Of a stretch of DNA of 64,000 nt, positions 24,109 to 36,313 are shown one piece after another. The DNA is from Candidatus Bipolaricaulota bacterium (GTDB lineage: Bacteria > Bipolaricaulota > Bipolaricaulia > UBA7950 > UBA9294). The DNA is taken from NCBI GenBank assembly GCA_028278555.1, contig JANQEA010000079.1, positions 1 through 64,000 of the forward strand, in the 5' to 3' direction. The notes beneath the pieces are model-generated. The model was not told the origin of the DNA, did not search any database, and saw only the letters and a list, made by a program, of their open reading frames with translations. Every line of letters starts with the position of its first letter. The first letter of the stretch is position 1. The position numbers were made by a program, and so were the translations under genes.

Positions 24109-25320
24109 CTATTCCACCCTCAACGCGTCGACGACGCGGAGTCCGGATGTCTGAATCGCCGGGAAGAGCGCCGACAGAAGCGTCGCGATCAGGCTGACCA
24201 CGAACGGCGGAACGGCTGTCATCCAAGTGAGCCGTACGGCAAGGAGGCTTGACTCGACGGTCCCCGGCGGGCGCCATTCGATCCCGAGTCCGTTGAAGCC
24301 GAGGCCGAGCAAGAACCCGGCTGCGACGCCGGCGAGGCTTCCGATCAGGGCGAGCCATCCGCTCTCGATCAGCAACTGGCCGAAGACCTGGCCGCGGGTC
24401 GTCCCGAGGGCTCGGATGGTTCCGATTTCGCGGGTCCGCTCGAGAAACGCGAGGGTAAGCACCTGGAGGATGATGAAGAAGACAAGAACGAAGACCGCGA
24501 GCGTGAGGAACCCGAACAGGATATCGAAGAACCCGGCGAGCTGCCGATAGATCGGCGAGAGCTCGTACCAGGTTCGTACCTCGAGGGCGAGGCCTGCGTC
24601 GGCCAGCTGGCGATCGATCGCTGTTGCGGCACGATCGGTGTCGGCGATGTCGCTCAGGCCGATGATCAGCCGATCGACGCCGGCCGTGTTGAGCAGGAGT
24701 TTGGCGAACGTCTGCGGCATGAAGAGCGTCTGCAGTTCGACCTGCTCGGACGTGAATCGATAGATGCCGACAATCTGGAGCGGTGTCGCGTTGAACGCCC
24801 CGGCGACAGTCGTCAGAGTGAGGGTGACGGCGTCGCCGACGCCAACCCCGAGCCGCCCGGCGAGCGACCGACCGATCAGGATCGATGCGACGTCGGACGG
24901 ATCGAGGGGGCGACCCTCGACGATCAGACCATCGGCGTTCAGCGTTGGGTTCCCCGGAACCTGGGCGGTGATCCGGACGACCTGCGTCTGATTGCCTGCA
25001 GCGAGAAGCCCGGGGAACTGAACCTGCGTCGTCACCCCTGTGATCCCGGCGTGCTCGGCGAGGAGTTCGAGAATCTCAGCCTCCGTCTCCGGGGCGATCA
25101 GATAGTCGTATCCATCCGCCGTGTCGTTCCACAGGACCGGAGAGGCGATTTGGAGGTTCCCGTACTCTCCGACGGTCGTTGCCTGAATCTGCGTCCGGGA
25201 GTCCTCGAGAAACCCGTAGACGAAGAGCGAAATGGCCGTTCCCAGGCCGATGATCGCGACCGAGAGGATCGTCCGCCGCCGGTTACGAAGGAGACTTCGG
25301 AGCGGAATCCACCAGGTCAT
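24109..25320 (-). CDS. FtsX/MacB-type ABC permease, first copy
   Basis: A 403-residue permease with the same topology as its paralogue: helix at about 15-36, periplasmic domain to about 275, and three C-terminal helices. The conserved cytoplasmic element LAFLERTREIGTIRALGTTRGQVF is present. Its first 38 bases overlap the end of the ATPase gene, and it is 10 bases from the second permease, so the ATPase and two permeases form one asymmetric transporter in the LolCDE style. Confidence 0.88.
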   Translation of the reverse strand: MTWWIPLRSLLRNRRRTILSVAIIGLGTAISLFVYGFLEDSRTQIQATTVGEYGNLQIASPVLWNDTADGYDYLIAPETEAEILELLAEHAGITGVTTQVQFPGLLAAGNQTQVVRITAQVPGNPTLNADGLIVEGRPLDPSDVASILIGRSLAGRLGVGVGDAVTLTLTTVAGAFNATPLQIVGIYRFTSEQVELQTLFMPQTFAKLLLNTAGVDRLIIGLSDIADTDRAATAIDRQLADAGLALEVRTWYELSPIYRQLAGFFDILFGFLTLAVFVLVFFIILQVLTLAFLERTREIGTIRALGTTRGQVFGQLLIESGWLALIGSLAGVAAGFLLGLGFNGLGIEWRPPGTVESSLLAVRLTWMTAVPPFVVSLIATLLSALFPAIQTSGLRVVDALRVE

Positions 25321-26035
25321 CCGTGCCTCCCTCCATCAAGTGCCCGTCGTGGATCCGGATCCGCCGCCGGGCATAGCCGGCGACTGCCGGGTCGTGCGTC
25401 ACCACGATGAAGACAACGCAGTGCTCCTCGTTCAGCGTCCGCATCAGTGCCATCACCTGGGCACCGGTCTCGGAGTCGAGATTGGCGGTCGGCTCATCGG
25501 CGAGGACGAGCTTCGGCTGAGTGATCAGGGCGCGAGCGATCGCGATCCTCTGCCGCTGCCCTCCGGAGAGTTCGTTTGGGCGGCGACGTGCGAGATCCTC
25601 CAACCCCACTTCGGCGAGGATGCTCTGGACGCGATCGGAACGCTCCGCACGTGACAGCTTCTGCAGCAGAAGCGGGTACTCGGCGTTTTCGGCGGCCGTG
25701 AGCACCGGGATCAGGTTGAACGTCTGAAAGATCAACCCGATCTTGTCCTTCCGAAGCTGGGCGAGCTGCCGTTCGGAGAGGGCGGCGGTCGAGGCCCCCT
25801 CGATCAGAACGTCGCCCTCGGTCGGTCGATCGATTGCCGAGATCAGGTTGAGGAACGTCGTCTTCCCGCTCCCCGAGGGTCCGTTGATGACGACGAAGTC
25901 GCCCTGCGCGGCGGTGAAGTCGACGTCACGGAGCGCGTGGACCGTCGAGCCCCCGACGCGATACGTCTTGGTCAGCGACTGAGCCTCGAGAAACGGGAGC
26001 CCTCGCTCGTGACAGAATTGGCTCTCGTGACTCAT
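25283..26035 (-). CDS. LolD/MacB-type ABC transporter ATPase
   Basis: A 250-residue ATPase of the FtsE/LolD/MacB class. Motifs: Walker A GPSGSGKTT, signature LSGGQRQRIAIARAL, Walker B LVLADEPTANLD, and the H-loop in VVTHDPAVAGYARR. The 'DEPTANLDSETG' wording is specific for the exporter/lipoprotein branch. The ATG at 26035 is preferred to one 60 bases upstream because AAGGAAGAG precedes it. Leads the operon with the two permeases and the LolA-like protein. Confidence 0.92.
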   Translation of the reverse strand: MSHESQFCHERGLPFLEAQSLTKTYRVGGSTVHALRDVDFTAAQGDFVVINGPSGSGKTTFLNLISAIDRPTEGDVLIEGASTAALSERQLAQLRKDKIGLIFQTFNLIPVLTAAENAEYPLLLQKLSRAERSDRVQSILAEVGLEDLARRRPNELSGGQRQRIAIARALITQPKLVLADEPTANLDSETGAQVMALMRTLNEEHCVVFIVVTHDPAVAGYARRRIRIHDGHLMEGGTDDLVDSAPKSPS

Positions 26036-26174
26036 GATCTCTTCCTTCCCTTGGGAATCCCGAACCAGCATCCGCTGAGGGTCCGCAAGATGCAAACATC
26101 ACCCAGAGGAATGGAGGACTTCTGTGGCCCGTTTGGGGATGCCGTGAACAGACTCCGTTCCGACGTGTGATGCG

Positions 26175-26565: not shown

Positions 26566-27462
26566 ATGAAGACGATCCCGATCGATTGCCAGATCTACGC
26601 ATTCAACAGCCAGATGAAACCGGCAGTGCGGACGGAACTCGGCTCGACGCTCCTCTTCGAGACGCAGGACGCCCTCGGGGGGCAGGTTCGTTCGCCGGAC
26701 GACATCCTCGCCGATCTCGACTTCACGCGGATCAATCTGGCGACCGGTCCGGGCTACGTTGACGGCGTGAATCCCGGCGACACGCTGGTTGTCTGCATCC
26801 ATTCGATCGAGCCGGCCGACTCCGGAGCGATCGTCACCGGCCCGGGTCTCGGCGTCCTCGGGAACGAGATGAAGAAGCACGCGACGCGGATCCTCCCGAT
26901 CGAGGACGGGTTCGTCCTCTTCGATGACCTGAGGCTTCCGATCCGGCCGATGATCGGTGTGATCGGTGTAGCGCCGGAGGAAGGGCACTACGCGACGGGG
27001 ACGGCGCACAAACACGGCGGGAACATGGACACAAAGGAGATCGTTGCAGGGCGAATCGTCTACTTCCCGGTCGCGCAACCCGGGGCGCTTCTCGCGCTCG
27101 GCGACGTCCACGCAGTCCAGGGCGACGGGGAGGTCTGCGTCTCCGCCTGTGAGGTCGACGCGCGGGTAACCGTCGAGGTCGCTTCGATCGCAGGTCGCCA
27201 GCCGGAGTGGCCGATCGTCGAGACGGACGACGCGTTCCTGATCCTCGTTTCGCTCCCGACGATCGACGAGGCGCTCGAGGAAGCGACCCGACAGGCCGTG
27301 AAACTGCTCGGGAAAGCACGAGAGCTTCCCGCGGAGGATGCCTGCATGCTCGCCAGCCTCGCCGTCGACATCGAGATCAGCCAGCTCGTCGACCCGAACA
27401 AGACCGCGCGGGCGAGGATCCCGAAGTCGATCCTCGGGGCGCCGCTCGCCGAGCTCCTCTGA
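26566..27462 (+). CDS. Acetamidase/formamidase family amidohydrolase
   Basis: A 298-residue cytoplasmic enzyme of the AmdA/FmdA family, which hydrolyses short amides to ammonia and the carboxylate. The family hallmark GDVHAVQGDGEVCVSACEV is intact, together with GTAHKHGGNMDTKEI in the metal/active-site region. Substrate may be formamide, acetamide or an amino-acid amide. The start at 26566 matches the family N-terminus; earlier in-frame codons read through the DsrE gene. Forms a unit with the DsrE-like protein. Confidence 0.85.
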   Translation: MKTIPIDCQIYAFNSQMKPAVRTELGSTLLFETQDALGGQVRSPDDILADLDFTRINLATGPGYVDGVNPGDTLVVCIHSIEPADSGAIVTGPGLGVLGNEMKKHATRILPIEDGFVLFDDLRLPIRPMIGVIGVAPEEGHYATGTAHKHGGNMDTKEIVAGRIVYFPVAQPGALLALGDVHAVQGDGEVCVSACEVDARVTVEVASIAGRQPEWPIVETDDAFLILVSLPTIDEALEEATRQAVKLLGKARELPAEDACMLASLAVDIEISQLVDPNKTARARIPKSILGAPLAELL

Positions 27463-27489
27463 AGGGATTGCGGGGTCGATATACTCTGC

Positions 27490-27637
27490 GTGTCGGGCTC
27501 CGCCCGACACGGACGAGTTTCTCCGCATCCGCGGACAAACTCGTGTGGGCGAAGTAGCACGATGAAGTGCAGCGGACCTGTCCGGTTTGGCGGAGCTCGA
27601 CGCGGGCGAGTTTCGCCGCTTGGGTGCCGAAACTCGC
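27490..27637 (+). other. Array of consecutive hairpins upstream of the amidohydrolase
   Basis: Within the 219-base gap 27463-27681 several stems follow one another: GTGTCGGGC/GCCCGACAC (27490-27510, loop TCC); ACGAGTTT/AAACTCGT (27513-27544) enclosing CCGC/GCGG; GCAC/GTGC (27557-27570); CGGAC/GTCCG (27573-27584); and GCGAGTTTCG/CGAAACTCGC (27606-27637). The second and last share the CGAGTTTC core. A TATACT at 27480-27485 could place all of them in the amidohydrolase leader. Confidence 0.6.
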
Positions 27638-27681
27638 ATCGGATGAGCTTGCAGCGCAAAGACGGAAGGGGATGAGATCGA

Positions 27682-28875
27682 GTGATCGCGATTCGTGGCG
27701 GTACGGTGTTGACTCCGACGGAGACGGTCGAGGGCGGCGTCGTCCTGATCGAGGACGGGAAGATCGCGGGTGTAGGCGCGGGTCTCGAGATCCCGGCAGA
27801 CGCCGAGGTGATCGACGCGACAGGGCAGGTTGTCATGCCGGGGATGATCGATGCCCATTGTCATACCGGCGTGTTCAACGACGGGGTCGGGTGGGCTCAC
27901 TCGGACGGGAACGAGATGACCGACCCGATCACCCCGCATCTCCGAGCGATCGACGCGATCCATCCGGAGGACATAGCATTCAAGGATCTCCGCGAAGCGG
28001 GCGTCACGACGATCAACACCGGCCCCGGCAGCGGGAACCTGATCGGCGGGCAGACGGCCGTGATCAAGACGGCCGGCCGGACGGTCGAGGAGATGCTCGT
28101 TGCGTTCCCAGTCGGGATGAAGATGGCGCTTGGCGAGAACCCGAAGCGCGTCTACGGCGAGCAGAAGAAGACCCCGTCGACGCGGATGGGGAACGCGGGG
28201 AAGCTCCGGGAGTGGCTGACGAAGGCGCAGGGGTACCTCGAGAAGAGTGCCCGCCACGAGACGAAGGTCGCCGACTTTCACGCCGGTGCCGAGGGAGCCG
28301 CTGAGCCGGAGCCGTTCGAAATCGATCTGAAGCTCGATGCCCTCGCGCAGGTGATCCGCCGCGAGATCCCGGCGCACATCCATGCCCATCGCGCCGACGA
28401 CATCATGACGGCTGTCCGGATCGCCGAGGAGTTCGAGCTCGATCTCGTACTGATTCACGCAACCGAGGGGTACAAGGTCGCGGACATCCTGGCGAAGAAG
28501 ATGATCCCCTGCATTCCCGGGCCGATCCTCTTCTCGCGTGCGAAGGTCGAACTTCGCGAGATGACTCCGAAGAACGCCGGGGCGCTCGCCAACGCCGGAG
28601 TGAAGGTTGCGATCCAAACCGACCAGATGTCGGCCGTTCGATACCTGCGGCTCGACGCGGCGATCGCCGTCAACGAAGGGATGACCGACGAAGACGCGCT
28701 TCGTGCGATCACGCTGACGCCGGCCGAGATCCTCGGAATCGACGATCGCGTTGGCAGTCTCGAGCCGGGAAAGGATGCAGACATCTTGATCCTGTCTGCC
28801 CATCCGCTCGACGTTGCGCACGGGCGCGTCCAGCGCGTCCTGATCGACGGGCAGACGGTCTTCGTGCGCGAGTAG
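27682..28875 (+). CDS. Amidohydrolase (imidazolonepropionase-like)
   Basis: A 397-residue metal-dependent hydrolase of the amidohydrolase superfamily. The metal-binding H-x-H is in GMIDAHCHTG (H59, H61), followed by later His residues in AHIHAHRADD and LIHATEG, and a Q-T-D motif (QTDQMSAVRYL) supplies the catalytic Asp. The C-terminal EPGKDADILIL strand closes the small composite beta domain. Similar proteins act on cyclic amides or peptides; the substrate is unknown. GTG start at 27682; preceded by an unusual run of hairpins. Confidence 0.85.
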   Translation: MIAIRGGTVLTPTETVEGGVVLIEDGKIAGVGAGLEIPADAEVIDATGQVVMPGMIDAHCHTGVFNDGVGWAHSDGNEMTDPITPHLRAIDAIHPEDIAFKDLREAGVTTINTGPGSGNLIGGQTAVIKTAGRTVEEMLVAFPVGMKMALGENPKRVYGEQKKTPSTRMGNAGKLREWLTKAQGYLEKSARHETKVADFHAGAEGAAEPEPFEIDLKLDALAQVIRREIPAHIHAHRADDIMTAVRIAEEFELDLVLIHATEGYKVADILAKKMIPCIPGPILFSRAKVELREMTPKNAGALANAGVKVAIQTDQMSAVRYLRLDAAIAVNEGMTDEDALRAITLTPAEILGIDDRVGSLEPGKDADILILSAHPLDVAHGRVQRVLIDGQTVFVRE

Positions 28876-31543: not shown

Positions 31544-34500
31544 CTACGGCGCCATCAGTAGCACGAGGATCATGCCGGACTCTCCGGTCATCGGCTCGAG
31601 CGCTTTCCCGACCAGCGCACAAGGGCAAGGACCTGAGCCGGACCAGCGCATCGCGTGGCCTGAGGTAGAGGATGTGACGAGAAGGTCTCCGGGTAGGATG
31701 GGCCCGCCCTCGTTCGTGACGCGAACGGGCACGATGCCGGCAAGAGCAAGCAGGGCCTGCTGCTCGAGTGCGCCGTCCTTCCCTAACACCACTCCCGGTT
31801 CGGTCGAAACCACGCCGGCGACCCGCTCGGAGCATGCCTCAGATGTGGGCTTGTACCCACCCGGAATGCTCGAATCGAGCATAACGACAGTCCCGGACTG
31901 AGCAGGACCGCTCAGAGAGACCCACTCAGCAATGTCCCCGAACGAACTCTGGATCGATGCCGAGTAGACGGTGCCATCGGCGTACATGTGGCCGCTATAA
32001 CCGACGCGGAAGGTAGCGGGTGTCCCGGTGGTCGGCGGCGTCTCCTGTCCACGCAGCACGCGACGGAAGACACCGGCGCCATGCGTTCCCAAGTAGAGAG
32101 TCGATCCGTCTGCAGACAGAGCCATCGTGTCGGTCACGTTGTTCCCGTTCGTTGCCGGATCGAGACCGCCCAGCCCTTCGTTCCATGGGATCCACGATCC
32201 GCCTGCATCAGTACTGATATGGACGCCGTCGTGTCGAGAAGCCAGGTACAACGTATCGGGTTCGGCCGGATCGACGATGATCGTATAGAACTCGTTTTCG
32301 GTGTCCAACCCCGTCGTGATCTCGAACCAGGATTCCCCGCCATTCGTCGACTTCATCACCGTGCCGCGGAACCCTTCGCGTCCCGTTCCTTCGTTCTCCC
32401 CGTTCTTCGAACAGGCGTACATCACGTCGGCGTCTCTCGGATCGAACGCGATCGAGAAGACCCACTGCTCCGGCGGCATTCCTTCATCCCACATCGCCCA
32501 ATGCTCGCCGAAATCGCTCGACCGGTTCATCCCGTTGTACGTTCCGGCGTAGACGATCTCCGGATCATCCGGGTGAGTGACAAGGCTGAAGACACCATCG
32601 AACGTCCAGCCGACGTTCCTCTCCCTCCACGTGGATCCGCCGTCGGTGGATTTGTAGATCCCTGCCGGGAATGTCCCGATCAGCATTCGGAGGGGATCGG
32701 TCGGGTGGAACAGGAGGGTCGTGTACTGGTAGAGCGGGCGGTCGTCCCAGATCGGCCAAAACACTCCCCAAACTCTCCAGTTCTGAGCCACCCAGCTGCT
32801 TCCGCTCCATTTGTACAGGCCGTAGCCCCGCGTTCCCGCGTACATATCGCCGCTTGGTCCGATGTAGAGGGACCGCACGTCGGTCGACTCGAGGCCCGTG
32901 TTGATCGCCTCCCACGAATCGCCGCCGTCGGAGGTTCTGTAGACGCCTTCCTCAGTCGCGACGTAGACGGTACCGATCGAGTCAATTGCGATCTGCGTGA
33001 CGTGCTTGCCATACATCTCCATCGTCGTTCCGTTGGCGGTGATGTCGAAATCCATCCCGTCGTAGGACTTGAAGATTCCCTTCCCCCAAGTTCCGAGCCA
33101 GACCTCTTCCGGGTCGCTCGGATTGATCGCGAATGTGTAATAGCCCTGACGGTACGGATCATCGACGATGACGCTTGGGGTGAGGAAGTTCTTGTCGTAG
33201 AAGGTCCCGCCGTTGTCGTCGGACCGATAGAGGCCTCCGGGGTTTGCCCCGACGAAGATCCGGCTCGAGTCGCTCGGGTCGACCCGGATCTCCAGGCTGT
33301 AGACGAACGGCACCGGCTTGTTGCTTCGCGACGGCTGCCAGGTGATCGACCAGTCGTTGGTATCGATATCCCCCGCGTAAACACCGCATCCCTGTGTTCC
33401 GACGTAGATCCTCTCCCCGGCGACGGCGCAGGATGTCAGGACTTGGGTGTCAAGGCCGGTGTTGTAGGGCATCCACGTCGCACCGCCGTCGGTCGACACC
33501 TGCAGCCCATCGTCCATCGCCGCGGCGAAGACGACGAGGTGATTCGACGGATGGAGCCGGACGGCACGGCACTCGTTGCTCGTGGCCAGCATCTGGGTCC
33601 ACGTCGCCCCGGAGTCGGTCGACTTGTAGACGCCGGCGGTGTCGGTAAACGTATAGCCGCTCGGCTTCATACACCAGGCAGGCACTGAGCCTCCCAGTCC
33701 GCAGGCGTAGAGGGTCGACGGCGTTACCGGATCGACCTCGATGTCATAGCCTCCGATGTCGGGGAAGCCGGCCATCTCGACCCATGTCGTCCCGCCGTTC
33801 GTCGACTTGTACGCTCCGTAGATATGGGTCGTCACATACAGCGTGTTCGGATCGCTTGGGTTGATCGCCAAGTCGAGGACGCTCCGAGGCAGGATCCCGG
33901 TGATGTCAGACCAGTTCGTCCCACCGTCGGTCGACTTGTACAACCGCCCGCCATGGATCCCCGGCCCGAACGTTGCGGCGTAGACCGTTGTCCCGTCGGC
34001 CACGACGCGGTTGAGGAGGAACCCGCCACTCGAGGAGAAATCCGCCACCTCGGTCCAGCCCGATCCGCCGGTCGTCGACTTCCAAACCTTCGGTGCCGTC
34101 CGGTCGGCCGAGTAGACGGTGTTGCTCCCCGGAGCATCGAGGCAGAGCGCCGTCGACGAGACCGGCGCCTCGCCGAGCAGATCCCAATCGTTGCCGGCAT
34201 TCGTCGTCTTCCACGTGCCGCCGAGCCACGTCGCGGCGTAGGCCGTCTCCGGGTTGGATGGATCGACGATCAGCTGCGGCTGTCCCCAAACGGTTAGCAT
34301 GATGAAGTGGTCGTTCAGGACCGTCCACGAATTGCCGCTGTTCGTGCTCCGGTAGACCTCGCCGCGCGTGCCGGTGCTCCCGGCGTAGAGCGTGCTCGGG
34401 CTGCTCGGATCGATCGCGACGCTGGTGATCCCGCTCGAACCGAAGACGTTCAGAGACGTATCCCACGAGTCTCCGCCGTCGGTCGTCCGTCGGACCATCG

Positions 34501-36127
34501 CGAAGTCCTGGAACGGCTTCGGGATGTACCCACTGTAGGCGATATTGGCGTTCATCGGGTGAACGGCGAGGCTGTAGGAGTAGTCGACCTCCGATTGGTG
34601 GAGGAACGTCCAGGACCAGTTGCCGCCCGACGGTCCCTCGCCCTTGAAGATGCCAAACCCACTGTCGAGGAAGTAGATGGTGTCGGGATCGGAGGACTGG
34701 CCGATTGCGTAGATCGAGTTGAAGTTGAAAGTCCCTTTCTGAGCGTGCCGGTTTCCGTCGCTGCTTGGATTCACGGGCGTCCACGAATCGCCGCGGTTCG
34801 TGCTCTTGAAGATGTAGGGCACATCGGCGACGTACCAAACCGTGTCCGAGTCATGCGGGTCGACGTTCAACTGATCGCCCCAGGGATGGTGGATGTCGGA
34901 GCTGATCGAGTGCCACGTGTCTCCGTAGTCGTCGGTTCGGAAGATACCCTGGCCATACCCGGACGACGCGTAGAACGTCCATGGGCGATCGGGGTCGATA
35001 GCAATCAGATTCATGCTGGTGACAGACAGACCGTTGTTCTTGTGTGCCCAAGAGCTGCCGCAATCGTCGGAGTGTGCGATGCCGGAGCCTCTGAGTGGGA
35101 GGTACAGGACGTTCGAGTTTGCGGGGTGAGCAGCGATGTCGGCAAAGTCGGCGAAATCCATCTCATCGGCCGGGGGGGTGATGTCCACGAACGATACGCC
35201 GCCGTTGTCTGTGCGGGCAAGATTGCTGCCCCCTGCGACAAACGTCTTGCCATCTGAAGTCGAGCCGATGACCCGAATCTGAGTGTCGTCGAAAGGCAAG
35301 CCGGAGACCGTCACAGAGGACCAGCTTGTGCTCCCATTGACGGATTTGAAGATGGCCGGCTGCGTGATCCCTTCGTTGAAGCGTGGGCCCTCGCTGATCC
35401 AGATCTCCTGGAGATTGAACGGGTTGACGAAGATGCTCTTGATCGACCGCTCGCCGTGCGGGCTACCATAGTCCACACGACTCCAGCTCAGGCCATCGTT
35501 GCTCGAGTAGTAGACCCTACCTTCGTTCCATGTGCTCCACTGCCAGTCGTTGATGCCGATGAGGAGCTTCCCGGTGCCGAGCGCTACCAGGGCATCGACG
35601 TCGCCGTTGGCGGGAGATGGTAGATCCGAAGTGATGTCTGTCCACGTTGCGCCAGCGTCTGTGGTCTTGTAGACGACGCATCTCGCGTGATCGTAGGTTC
35701 TGCCAGCTCGGTAAAGCGAGCTGGGATTCAGAGGATCCATCGCGAAGGCGTGAGTCCATGCGATATCACCGTATGTGTCGTTGATCTCCTGCCACGTTGT
35801 CCCGCCGTCGGTGCTCTTCGAGAGGCCGCTGTAGTCAAGGTACAAGGTTGTTGGAGTTGTCGGGTCGACGATCAGGTTCACCGCCATGGCGGTGGCAGGA
35901 GTGGGGAAGGGAAGGATCGTCCACTCGTCTCCTCCGTCGATGGTCTTGTACAGCCCTTCCCGAGACCCTGCGGCGTAGAGGATCGAGGGATTCGAAGGGA
36001 CGATCTCGATATCATCGATGGCCCCGCCGGGAGGACCGCCGGTCCGTTCCCACTCCGAAACCCCGATTGCCGACGACGCGAGTACAGCCACGATGAGCAG
36101 AGCAACGACCGCCAGTGAACGGCACAT
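31544..36127 (-). CDS. Very large secreted Asp-box (BNR/sortilin-like) beta-propeller protein
   Basis: A 1527-residue exported protein. The signal peptide is MCRSLAVVALLIVAVLASS with cleavage near 22; the ATG at 36127 is chosen because GGAGGAGGT lies upstream. About 23 Asp-box motifs of the form S-T-D-G-G-x-x-W recur through most of the chain (for example STDGGTTW, TTDAGATW, STNSGNSW), spaced as in stacked ten- or seven-bladed propellers of the sortilin/Ycf48 kind. Blades also share DP-x-x-P-x-T-L-Y-A strands. The last 140 residues form a separate module (FGDIAEWVSL, VAGVVSTEPGVVLG) like C-terminal modules of other secreted bacterial proteins. Binding or adhesion at the surface is likely; no catalytic site seen. 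Confidence 0.85.
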   Translation of the reverse strand: MCRSLAVVALLIVAVLASSAIGVSEWERTGGPPGGAIDDIEIVPSNPSILYAAGSREGLYKTIDGGDEWTILPFPTPATAMAVNLIVDPTTPTTLYLDYSGLSKSTDGGTTWQEINDTYGDIAWTHAFAMDPLNPSSLYRAGRTYDHARCVVYKTTDAGATWTDITSDLPSPANGDVDALVALGTGKLLIGINDWQWSTWNEGRVYYSSNDGLSWSRVDYGSPHGERSIKSIFVNPFNLQEIWISEGPRFNEGITQPAIFKSVNGSTSWSSVTVSGLPFDDTQIRVIGSTSDGKTFVAGGSNLARTDNGGVSFVDITPPADEMDFADFADIAAHPANSNVLYLPLRGSGIAHSDDCGSSWAHKNNGLSVTSMNLIAIDPDRPWTFYASSGYGQGIFRTDDYGDTWHSISSDIHHPWGDQLNVDPHDSDTVWYVADVPYIFKSTNRGDSWTPVNPSSDGNRHAQKGTFNFNSIYAIGQSSDPDTIYFLDSGFGIFKGEGPSGGNWSWTFLHQSEVDYSYSLAVHPMNANIAYSGYIPKPFQDFAMVRRTTDGGDSWDTSLNVFGSSGITSVAIDPSSPSTLYAGSTGTRGEVYRSTNSGNSWTVLNDHFIMLTVWGQPQLIVDPSNPETAYAATWLGGTWKTTNAGNDWDLLGEAPVSSTALCLDAPGSNTVYSADRTAPKVWKSTTGGSGWTEVADFSSSGGFLLNRVVADGTTVYAATFGPGIHGGRLYKSTDGGTNWSDITGILPRSVLDLAINPSDPNTLYVTTHIYGAYKSTNGGTTWVEMAGFPDIGGYDIEVDPVTPSTLYACGLGGSVPAWCMKPSGYTFTDTAGVYKSTDSGATWTQMLATSNECRAVRLHPSNHLVVFAAAMDDGLQVSTDGGATWMPYNTGLDTQVLTSCAVAGERIYVGTQGCGVYAGDIDTNDWSITWQPSRSNKPVPFVYSLEIRVDPSDSSRIFVGANPGGLYRSDDNGGTFYDKNFLTPSVIVDDPYRQGYYTFAINPSDPEEVWLGTWGKGIFKSYDGMDFDITANGTTMEMYGKHVTQIAIDSIGTVYVATEEGVYRTSDGGDSWEAINTGLESTDVRSLYIGPSGDMYAGTRGYGLYKWSGSSWVAQNWRVWGVFWPIWDDRPLYQYTTLLFHPTDPLRMLIGTFPAGIYKSTDGGSTWRERNVGWTFDGVFSLVTHPDDPEIVYAGTYNGMNRSSDFGEHWAMWDEGMPPEQWVFSIAFDPRDADVMYACSKNGENEGTGREGFRGTVMKSTNGGESWFEITTGLDTENEFYTIIVDPAEPDTLYLASRHDGVHISTDAGGSWIPWNEGLGGLDPATNGNNVTDTMALSADGSTLYLGTHGAGVFRRVLRGQETPPTTGTPATFRVGYSGHMYADGTVYSASIQSSFGDIAEWVSLSGPAQSGTVVMLDSSIPGGYKPTSEACSERVAGVVSTEPGVVLGKDGALEQQALLALAGIVPVRVTNEGGPILPGDLLVTSSTSGHAMRWSGSGPCPCALVGKALEPMTGESGMILVLLMAP

Positions 36128-36313
36128 CCCCGCTACCTCCTCCATGGTCACGGTTGTTTGACATGCGGTTCCCGGCTCATCGGACGTGAACAGATCGACA
36201 GCATGAGCCTGAGTCGTGCGGATACACATGTCAACCCAACATCACTGTTGGTAGAGAATTCTAATAGGTGGATCGAAACCAGGCAATCGCGATGGAGCCT
36301 TGCCGTTCCCGAA

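Follow-up and report, generated by a model that had tools for sequence, protein, structure and literature searches.

A Dispersed Double-Palindrome Repeat Probably Accounts for the Hairpins Upstream of an Amidohydrolase Gene in Candidatus Bipolaricaulota

The Locus and Its Genes

The window (the whole stretch of DNA analyzed, 64,000 nucleotides) is part of contig 69 of a Candidatus Bipolaricaulota genome of 2.9 Mb (88 contigs, 88% complete). Region 27463–27681 is the spacer between an FmdA_AmdA gene and an amidohydrolase gene. A sequence-only reading had described it as the leader of the latter, which is only half of its setting: the segment does lie 5′ of the amidohydrolase but equally forms the fmdA/amidohydrolase spacer. 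The features of the locus are as follows.

26566–27462, + strand: fmdA/amdA-like acetamidase/formamidase gene, the upstream neighbor (Pfam FmdA_AmdA, PF03069, E 1.8e-31)
27480–27485, + strand: −10-like box TATACT, recurring before 7 of 14 family orthologues
27489–27511, + strand: copy 1, hairpin A; a perfect 10-bp stem closing a 3-nt loop (TCC)
27512, + strand: unpaired single G joining hairpins A and B of copy 1
27513–27544, + strand: copy 1, hairpin B (ACGAGTTT...AAACTCGT), 8 bp plus an inner 5-bp stem; the covarying helix
27545–27552, + strand: copy 1, conserved tail GTGGGCGA; positions 1–7 downstream stand out (21 copies)
27583–27605, + strand: copy 2, degenerate A region; only a 3′-arm-like part, an A hairpin was not found
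27606–27637, + strand: copy 2, hairpin B (GCGAGTTTCG...CGAAACTCGC), 10 bp with a 12-nt loop
27638–27647, + strand: copy 2, diverged tail ATCGGATGAG
27682–28875, + strand: amidohydrolase gene with a GTG start (Pfam Amidohydro_1, E 1e-22), with orthologues in related genomes

The amidohydrolase start is preceded by GGAAGGGG at 27664–27671, which by eye resembles a Shine-Dalgarno sequence. Among named records, the nearest relatives of the protein are mostly from Candidatus Bipolaricaulota/Acetothermia MAGs, and an fmdA homologue also lies close upstream of the amidohydrolase at five other loci (L023, L183, L184, L185, and L195). Gene calls came from a simple codon-usage script that mislabels some regions; an ABC-ATPase-like gene at 25283–26095 (named by eye) is absent from these calls. 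Elsewhere in the window, 31544–36229 and a second locus (L004, 68–1222) encode otherwise different-looking proteins with a C-terminal stretch in common (GDLLV.SST.G.AMRW...ALVGKALEPMT.ESG.ILVLL, with a near copy in the other protein).

Hairpins in the Spacer

The spacer holds two neighboring copies of one repeat unit, a complete one at 27489–27552 and a partly decayed one at 27583–27647. Both CGAGTTT stems were confirmed exactly where the earlier reading had placed them (27513–27544 and 27606–27637). That reading also counted five or more hairpins; as many can indeed be drawn, but the strong ones are three (27489–27511, 27513–27544, and 27606–27637) and the rest are weak or alternative. The weak stems include GCAC/GTGC at 27557–27570, GGAC/GTCC around 27575–27584 and, in one predicted fold, a 7-pair stem with G-U pairs at 27470–27489. 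The minimum-energy fold further permits long-range pairing of 27489–27504 with 27589–27604 (16 nt, 88% complementary) as a predicted alternative.

Folding of 27463–27681 is better than that of dinucleotide shuffles, with z-scores of −2.9 on the plus strand, a value reached by 1 of 200 shuffles, and −4.8 on the minus strand, reached by 0 of 200. With the pair span limited to 45 nt, the respective values are −2.8 (3 of 300) and −3.4 (0 of 300). Among 180 intergenic regions of 120–400 bp from the sampled genome, the segment takes 9th place in an approximate ranking by folding based on 25 shuffles per region, so its folding is unusual, not unique. When searched as one repeat, the entire leader is single-copy in the genome.

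Architecture of the Repeat Unit

The unit, about 65 bp long, has the consensus TK-[hairpin A]-G-[hairpin B]-GTKGGYGA. Hairpin A, with CGYG...CRCG at its base in most copies, is followed by a single unpaired base (usually G), hairpin B (RCGAGWW...WWCTCGY), and the tail. The pattern CGAGTTTN8-30AAACTCG occurs six times per strand in the 2.9-Mb genome, including the two sites of the window, and the reversed control pattern does not occur. The looser CGAGTTN4-34AACTCG gives 40 sites versus 4 for its control, and 32 of the 40 fall within the sampled sequence, where the codon-usage calls class 13 as intergenic and 19 as coding. A second perfect hairpin (at least 7 bp, within 4 nt) accompanies 9 of the 13 intergenic sites and none of the 19 coding ones, versus 79 of 3000 random intergenic positions.

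Two models of the repeat were built, the second a covariance model (R2, below). Helix A was left out of both because its arms vary in length and were misaligned by MAFFT. Model R1, made from nine aligned and oriented copies with helix A unpaired, matches 21 sites at E ≤ 1, 12 of them beyond its training set. One is copy 2 of the window, which lies outside the nine training copies and is matched at 27583–27646 (32.1 bits, E 0.003). In our reading, hairpin A adjoins B in eight of these 12 further sites, including four of the six unseen in earlier searches, although A is partly selected among R1 sites since the A columns of the model carry sequence. Site C84:220947 is probably a false match, because no A hairpin adjoins it. 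Model R2 (22 copies) has 24 matches in its own genome at E ≤ 0.1, of which 22 sequences are the training set; E-values of the models are rough.

Hairpin A was scored as adjoining B in 18 of 25 elements, with a spacer of 1 nt in 16 and of 2 nt in two; the adjacency script overlooked the hairpin A that other comparisons show in two elements (L211 and L228). The spacer itself, in 19 copies, is G in 13, T in four, GG in one, and absent in one. Tail positions 1–7 after B carry 0.36–0.88 bits (21 copies; null mean 0.10, 99th percentile 0.37), followed mostly by background, and conservation is also strong at the two upstream positions nearest A (0.85 and 0.87 bits in 19 copies). Similarity between copies thus largely ends at both boundaries of the unit. 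A handful of scattered flank columns also exceed 0.37 bits; flanks shared by copies of the C38 tRNA cluster and by those of the C41 arrays are probably part of the reason.

Neighboring copies, as in the window, were also found at L222 and L227. At L111 (5731–6263) and L222 (1050–1600), arrays of about 190-bp units alternate copies of the element with another hairpin (GCAAGAACGGAGC...GCTCCGTTCTTGC), which is likewise followed by GTTGATGAG or GTGGATGAC.

Covariation of Helix B

Despite sequence differences among the 22 copies, 98.9% of helix B cells are paired. The covariation score is 0.547 versus 0.151 in shuffled alignments (0 of 500 as high) and 0.135 in the best slid one, and 32 cells are altered on both sides versus 8.6 when shuffled (0 of 500). 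Weaker measures are the pairs changed on both sides (6 of 8; 12 of 500 shuffles as high) and the further pair types (8; 60 of 500). The 22-copy alignment was fitted to the structure and hence leans towards pairing. The nine-copy alignment gives 98.6% paired cells, a score of 0.493 versus 0.170 shuffled (0 of 500), five pairs changed on both sides (3 of 500), and six further pair types (77 of 500).

Because the CGAGTT pattern led to the first sighting of most copies, selection by this pattern partly fixes the inner pairs of helix B. This bias does not reach the outermost and innermost pairs, which therefore provide the fairest evidence: the outermost is GC in 13 copies, AU in six, CG in two, and GU in one, and the innermost is UA in 13, CG in seven, and unpaired in two. 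The earlier reading had expected a plain repeat family to show one core at many sites and no covariation. We found the many sites with a single core, but the copies clearly covary.

Distribution in the Genome and in Relatives

Copies occupy convergent, codirectional, and divergent spacers and can be on either strand with respect to genes and tRNAs. Some are located in tRNA clusters (L103, L104, and L106), and the C38 tRNA cluster includes a pair of copies in opposite orientation, tails inward, resembling the dimers formed by REPs. At L103 (6006–6054), tRNA-Arg(ccg) is closely followed on its 3′ side by a hairpin of some 20 bp that repeats the GGGCGT acceptor end of the tRNA.

Across the other 32 genomes of the family, R2 yielded four weak matches (150 candidates scored per genome). 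Genome G028 has a clear distant copy with an A-G-B-GTTGGTGAGC layout (E 0.012), the match in G032 is close to other paired hairpins, and those in G005 and G021 lack the unit layout by eye. Under stricter filters (52 candidates scored per genome), 99 other genomes of the class gave no match at E ≤ 0.01. Of 59 other genomes, 14 have CGAGTTT hairpins, usually a single one (15 of 60 genomes with the own one), the next highest being G014 with four. Only this last count looked notable, since the reversed control equals such counts in several genomes. A sister family in G014 (tail AGGTTACGARTCCG) was considered and dropped, being confined to three places, all in that genome. A tRNA-Ser/Arg cluster of G014 (L157, 7350–9100) has a long spacer dense in GAGTTTG hairpins with tandem copies of about 165 bp; its hairpin pairs have 3-nt spacers and a CAGGTTACGAATCC-like tail and may be a sister repeat type.

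In arbitrary samples, adjacent intergenic hairpin pairs number three in 400 kb of the own genome (0.67 when shuffled), none in G014 (0.33), and none in G036 (0.0). This result is modest, and our claim consequently rests on the defined element, not on hairpin density. An all-against-all blastn search of sampled intergenic regions revealed no high-copy sequence repeat among 101 matches, which were mainly local duplications and tRNAs.

A Promoter-Like Box and the Orthologous Loci

The −10 that had been proposed just upstream of the hairpins exists as TATACT and recurs before orthologues, but a full promoter was not recovered: a scan with the sigma-70 consensus called none here and a good −35 was not seen. 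A transcript from this box would begin near 27491. In 33 family genomes (own included), we found a clear amidohydrolase orthologue in 14 others (best match 65–77% identical). TATACT lies 52–108 bp before the start in seven of them (L182, L183, L186, L188, L191, L192, and L195); two others have TACACT, one has TATCCT, and four have none of these boxes. The box was picked post hoc, after its sighting in the window. Shuffled upstream stretches contain it in 22 of 2800 cases (0.11 expected per 14), and on the reverse strand it is found in none of the same 14 upstream stretches.

In the window, TATACT is 202 bp upstream of the start, versus 52–108 bp in the orthologues. None of the 14 family orthologues has the repeat upstream, and at 20 orthologous loci besides that of the window (the 14 plus six named records, at least four of them apparently from genomes already among the 14) the element model found no copy, the sole match being the window's own. 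Three of the 14 carry one unrelated hairpin upstream (at least 8 pairs, within 230 nt). The simplest reading is an insertion of the repeat that separated an ancestral promoter from the amidohydrolase start and gave the gene a structured 5′ UTR. The closest orthologues share 73–77% protein identity and their spacers are not alignable by eye, so an empty site is not available for comparison.

Interpretation of the Hairpins

We consider it likely that the segment carries, in two copies, a REP-like repeat about 65 bp long that is dispersed and lineage-restricted, presumably spread as DNA palindromes, and was inserted locally. The clustered REP-like repeats suggested from the letters alone are supported by the occurrence of the same stem at about twenty sites in the genome. 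Given this scatter, the hairpins probably belong to a dispersed repeat rather than to a riboswitch of the amidohydrolase.

The alternative suggestion, a structured regulatory RNA of the amidohydrolase, found no support: orthologues lack the element, copies lie on either strand, and Rfam gave no match above threshold. A broader version proposes an RNA element of many mRNAs or tRNA precursors (for stability, processing, or regulation) that is selected for RNA folding and is not mobile DNA. The compensatory changes in the B stem, the spacer nearly fixed at 1 nt, the conserved single-stranded tail, the copies adjoining tRNA genes, and the probable promoter upstream of the window copy would all suit such an RNA. 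We nevertheless regard it as unlikely, as copies run in both directions relative to neighboring genes and tRNAs and orthologous loci lack the element. Stem mismatches on the A-to-B strand moreover include seven A.C versus three G.T, thus no wobble preference, although the numbers are small. The Rfam scan of the window gave no match at the gathering score, with only sub-threshold miRNA models at 27400–27750; a further scan placed tRNAs alone above threshold and nothing for the repeat element.

That the hairpins are intrinsic terminators of fmdA and other genes is very improbable. The first base of hairpin A lies 27 nt beyond the fmdA stop codon, and spacers between convergent genes have the highest density of intergenic hairpins (6.1 and 4.1 per kb in two samples, versus 1.2 and 1.4 shuffled), but 27300–27800 has no terminator-like site, the tail is GTKGGYGA and not a U run, and a −10-like box lies upstream of the hairpins. 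In addition, the copies at L111 and L154 are antisense to both neighbors and that at L222 sits in a divergent spacer. Duplication might instead have dispersed an array of binding sites for a DNA-binding or nucleoid protein. Such an array would match the palindromes with conserved bases, the clustered copies (L222 array), and the lack of a strand rule, but it is equally remote, as the stem interiors vary with pairing kept, a better fit to a cruciform or hairpin than to recognition of duplex sequence. Hammerhead-like and attC-like readings of the tail were dropped, as their core motifs do not fit.

Returning to the dispersed repeat, its spread may have proceeded as DNA palindromes or as a folded single strand, through a transposase, single-strand or replication-based copying, or replication slippage. 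Since hairpin A starts approximately where the transcript would begin, the likeliest local effect would be that of a 5′-terminal stem-loop, which could alter mRNA stability or insulate against fmdA read-through; ligand sensing is not expected. With its defined architecture, bounded core, about two dozen model matches, covarying stem, and absence at orthologous loci, the repeat forms a new, previously unnamed, lineage-restricted double-palindrome family, whose spread and function we infer. More tentatively, it might be a new class of small element in Bipolaricaulota, with unlike hairpins one base apart, a conserved tag, and stems that turn over yet stay paired, which is copied as a folded single strand by some machinery or serves as a strand-indifferent hairpin device. 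If so, the covariation would mark selection on DNA secondary structure. The family is a clean test set for the question of whether stem pairing is maintained by folding of DNA or of RNA, and it carries a warning: covariation among paralogous leader hairpins can stem from a dispersed repeat and not from a riboswitch.

Comparison With REP-Type Systems

Judged by titles and abstract openings, the open PMC literature yielded no papers on such repeats in Bipolaricaulota. GTAG-REPs are recognized by an unpaired GTAG at one palindrome end, and by eye GTAG/CTAC stands directly at the stem end in none of 21 downstream and none of 19 upstream flanks; at L211, GTAG lies upstream two bases from hairpin A. 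CGTC-REPs have an unpaired CGTC at one end of an 8–9 bp stem and a short tail that is mostly CCA. By eye, GACG (CGTC on the other strand) is found at the stem end in one of 21 tails (L226) and 7–8 bases in for five of 21, and the CGTC tag is not a general feature of the repeat. RAYT-REPs flank a RAYT (Y1_Tnp) gene. The 88%-complete genome has one such RAYT/TIRYT-like gene (L022, 1190–1950; G000:C63, about 89713–90473), flanked by TTCGGGGGACACATACC inverted repeats, which are unlike the repeat element and fit the GGGGWSAS motif described for TIRYT genes (PMC3733652). A link between this gene and the repeat was rejected, as the gene has its own unrelated inverted repeats and its contig contains no CGAGTT hairpins. 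On these three results, the repeat was not filed in any of these families.

According to Di Nocera et al. (2013; PMC3733652), GTAG/CGTC-tagged REPs and BIMEs are small intergenic palindromes, with some families confined to a single species, and tagged REPs have alternative complementary stem residues, a conserved unpaired end motif, dimers, and clusters. Our repeat shares the intergenic palindromes, narrow host range, complementary stem changes, unpaired end motif, dimers, and clusters with the systems so described, but each of its units joins two unlike hairpins, its copies number about two dozen, and it has no RAYT link. REPs usually exceed 100 copies (PMC2817692); the repeat, dispersed and mostly intergenic with its 24 matches at E ≤ 0.1, is low in copy number for a REP. 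PMC3733652 also describes double-palindrome TIRs that flank RAYT/TIRYT genes, in which degenerate GTAG-1 units are joined to unrelated stem-loops, with hundreds in P. putida and P. fluorescens. As portrayed there, they resemble the repeat in having two adjoining stem-loops per repeated unit but differ in that the only Y1_Tnp gene found in this genome has GGGGWSAS-type repeats and no visible link to the element.

The repeat adds a defined double-palindrome family in a little-studied phylum, as a rule without either of the two described REP tags and with no linked RAYT. A REPIN consists of two inverted copies of one REP. REPINs (PMC3116915) and our repeat both combine two palindromes in a miniature unit, but hairpins A and B of the repeat differ from each other and stand in a fixed order.
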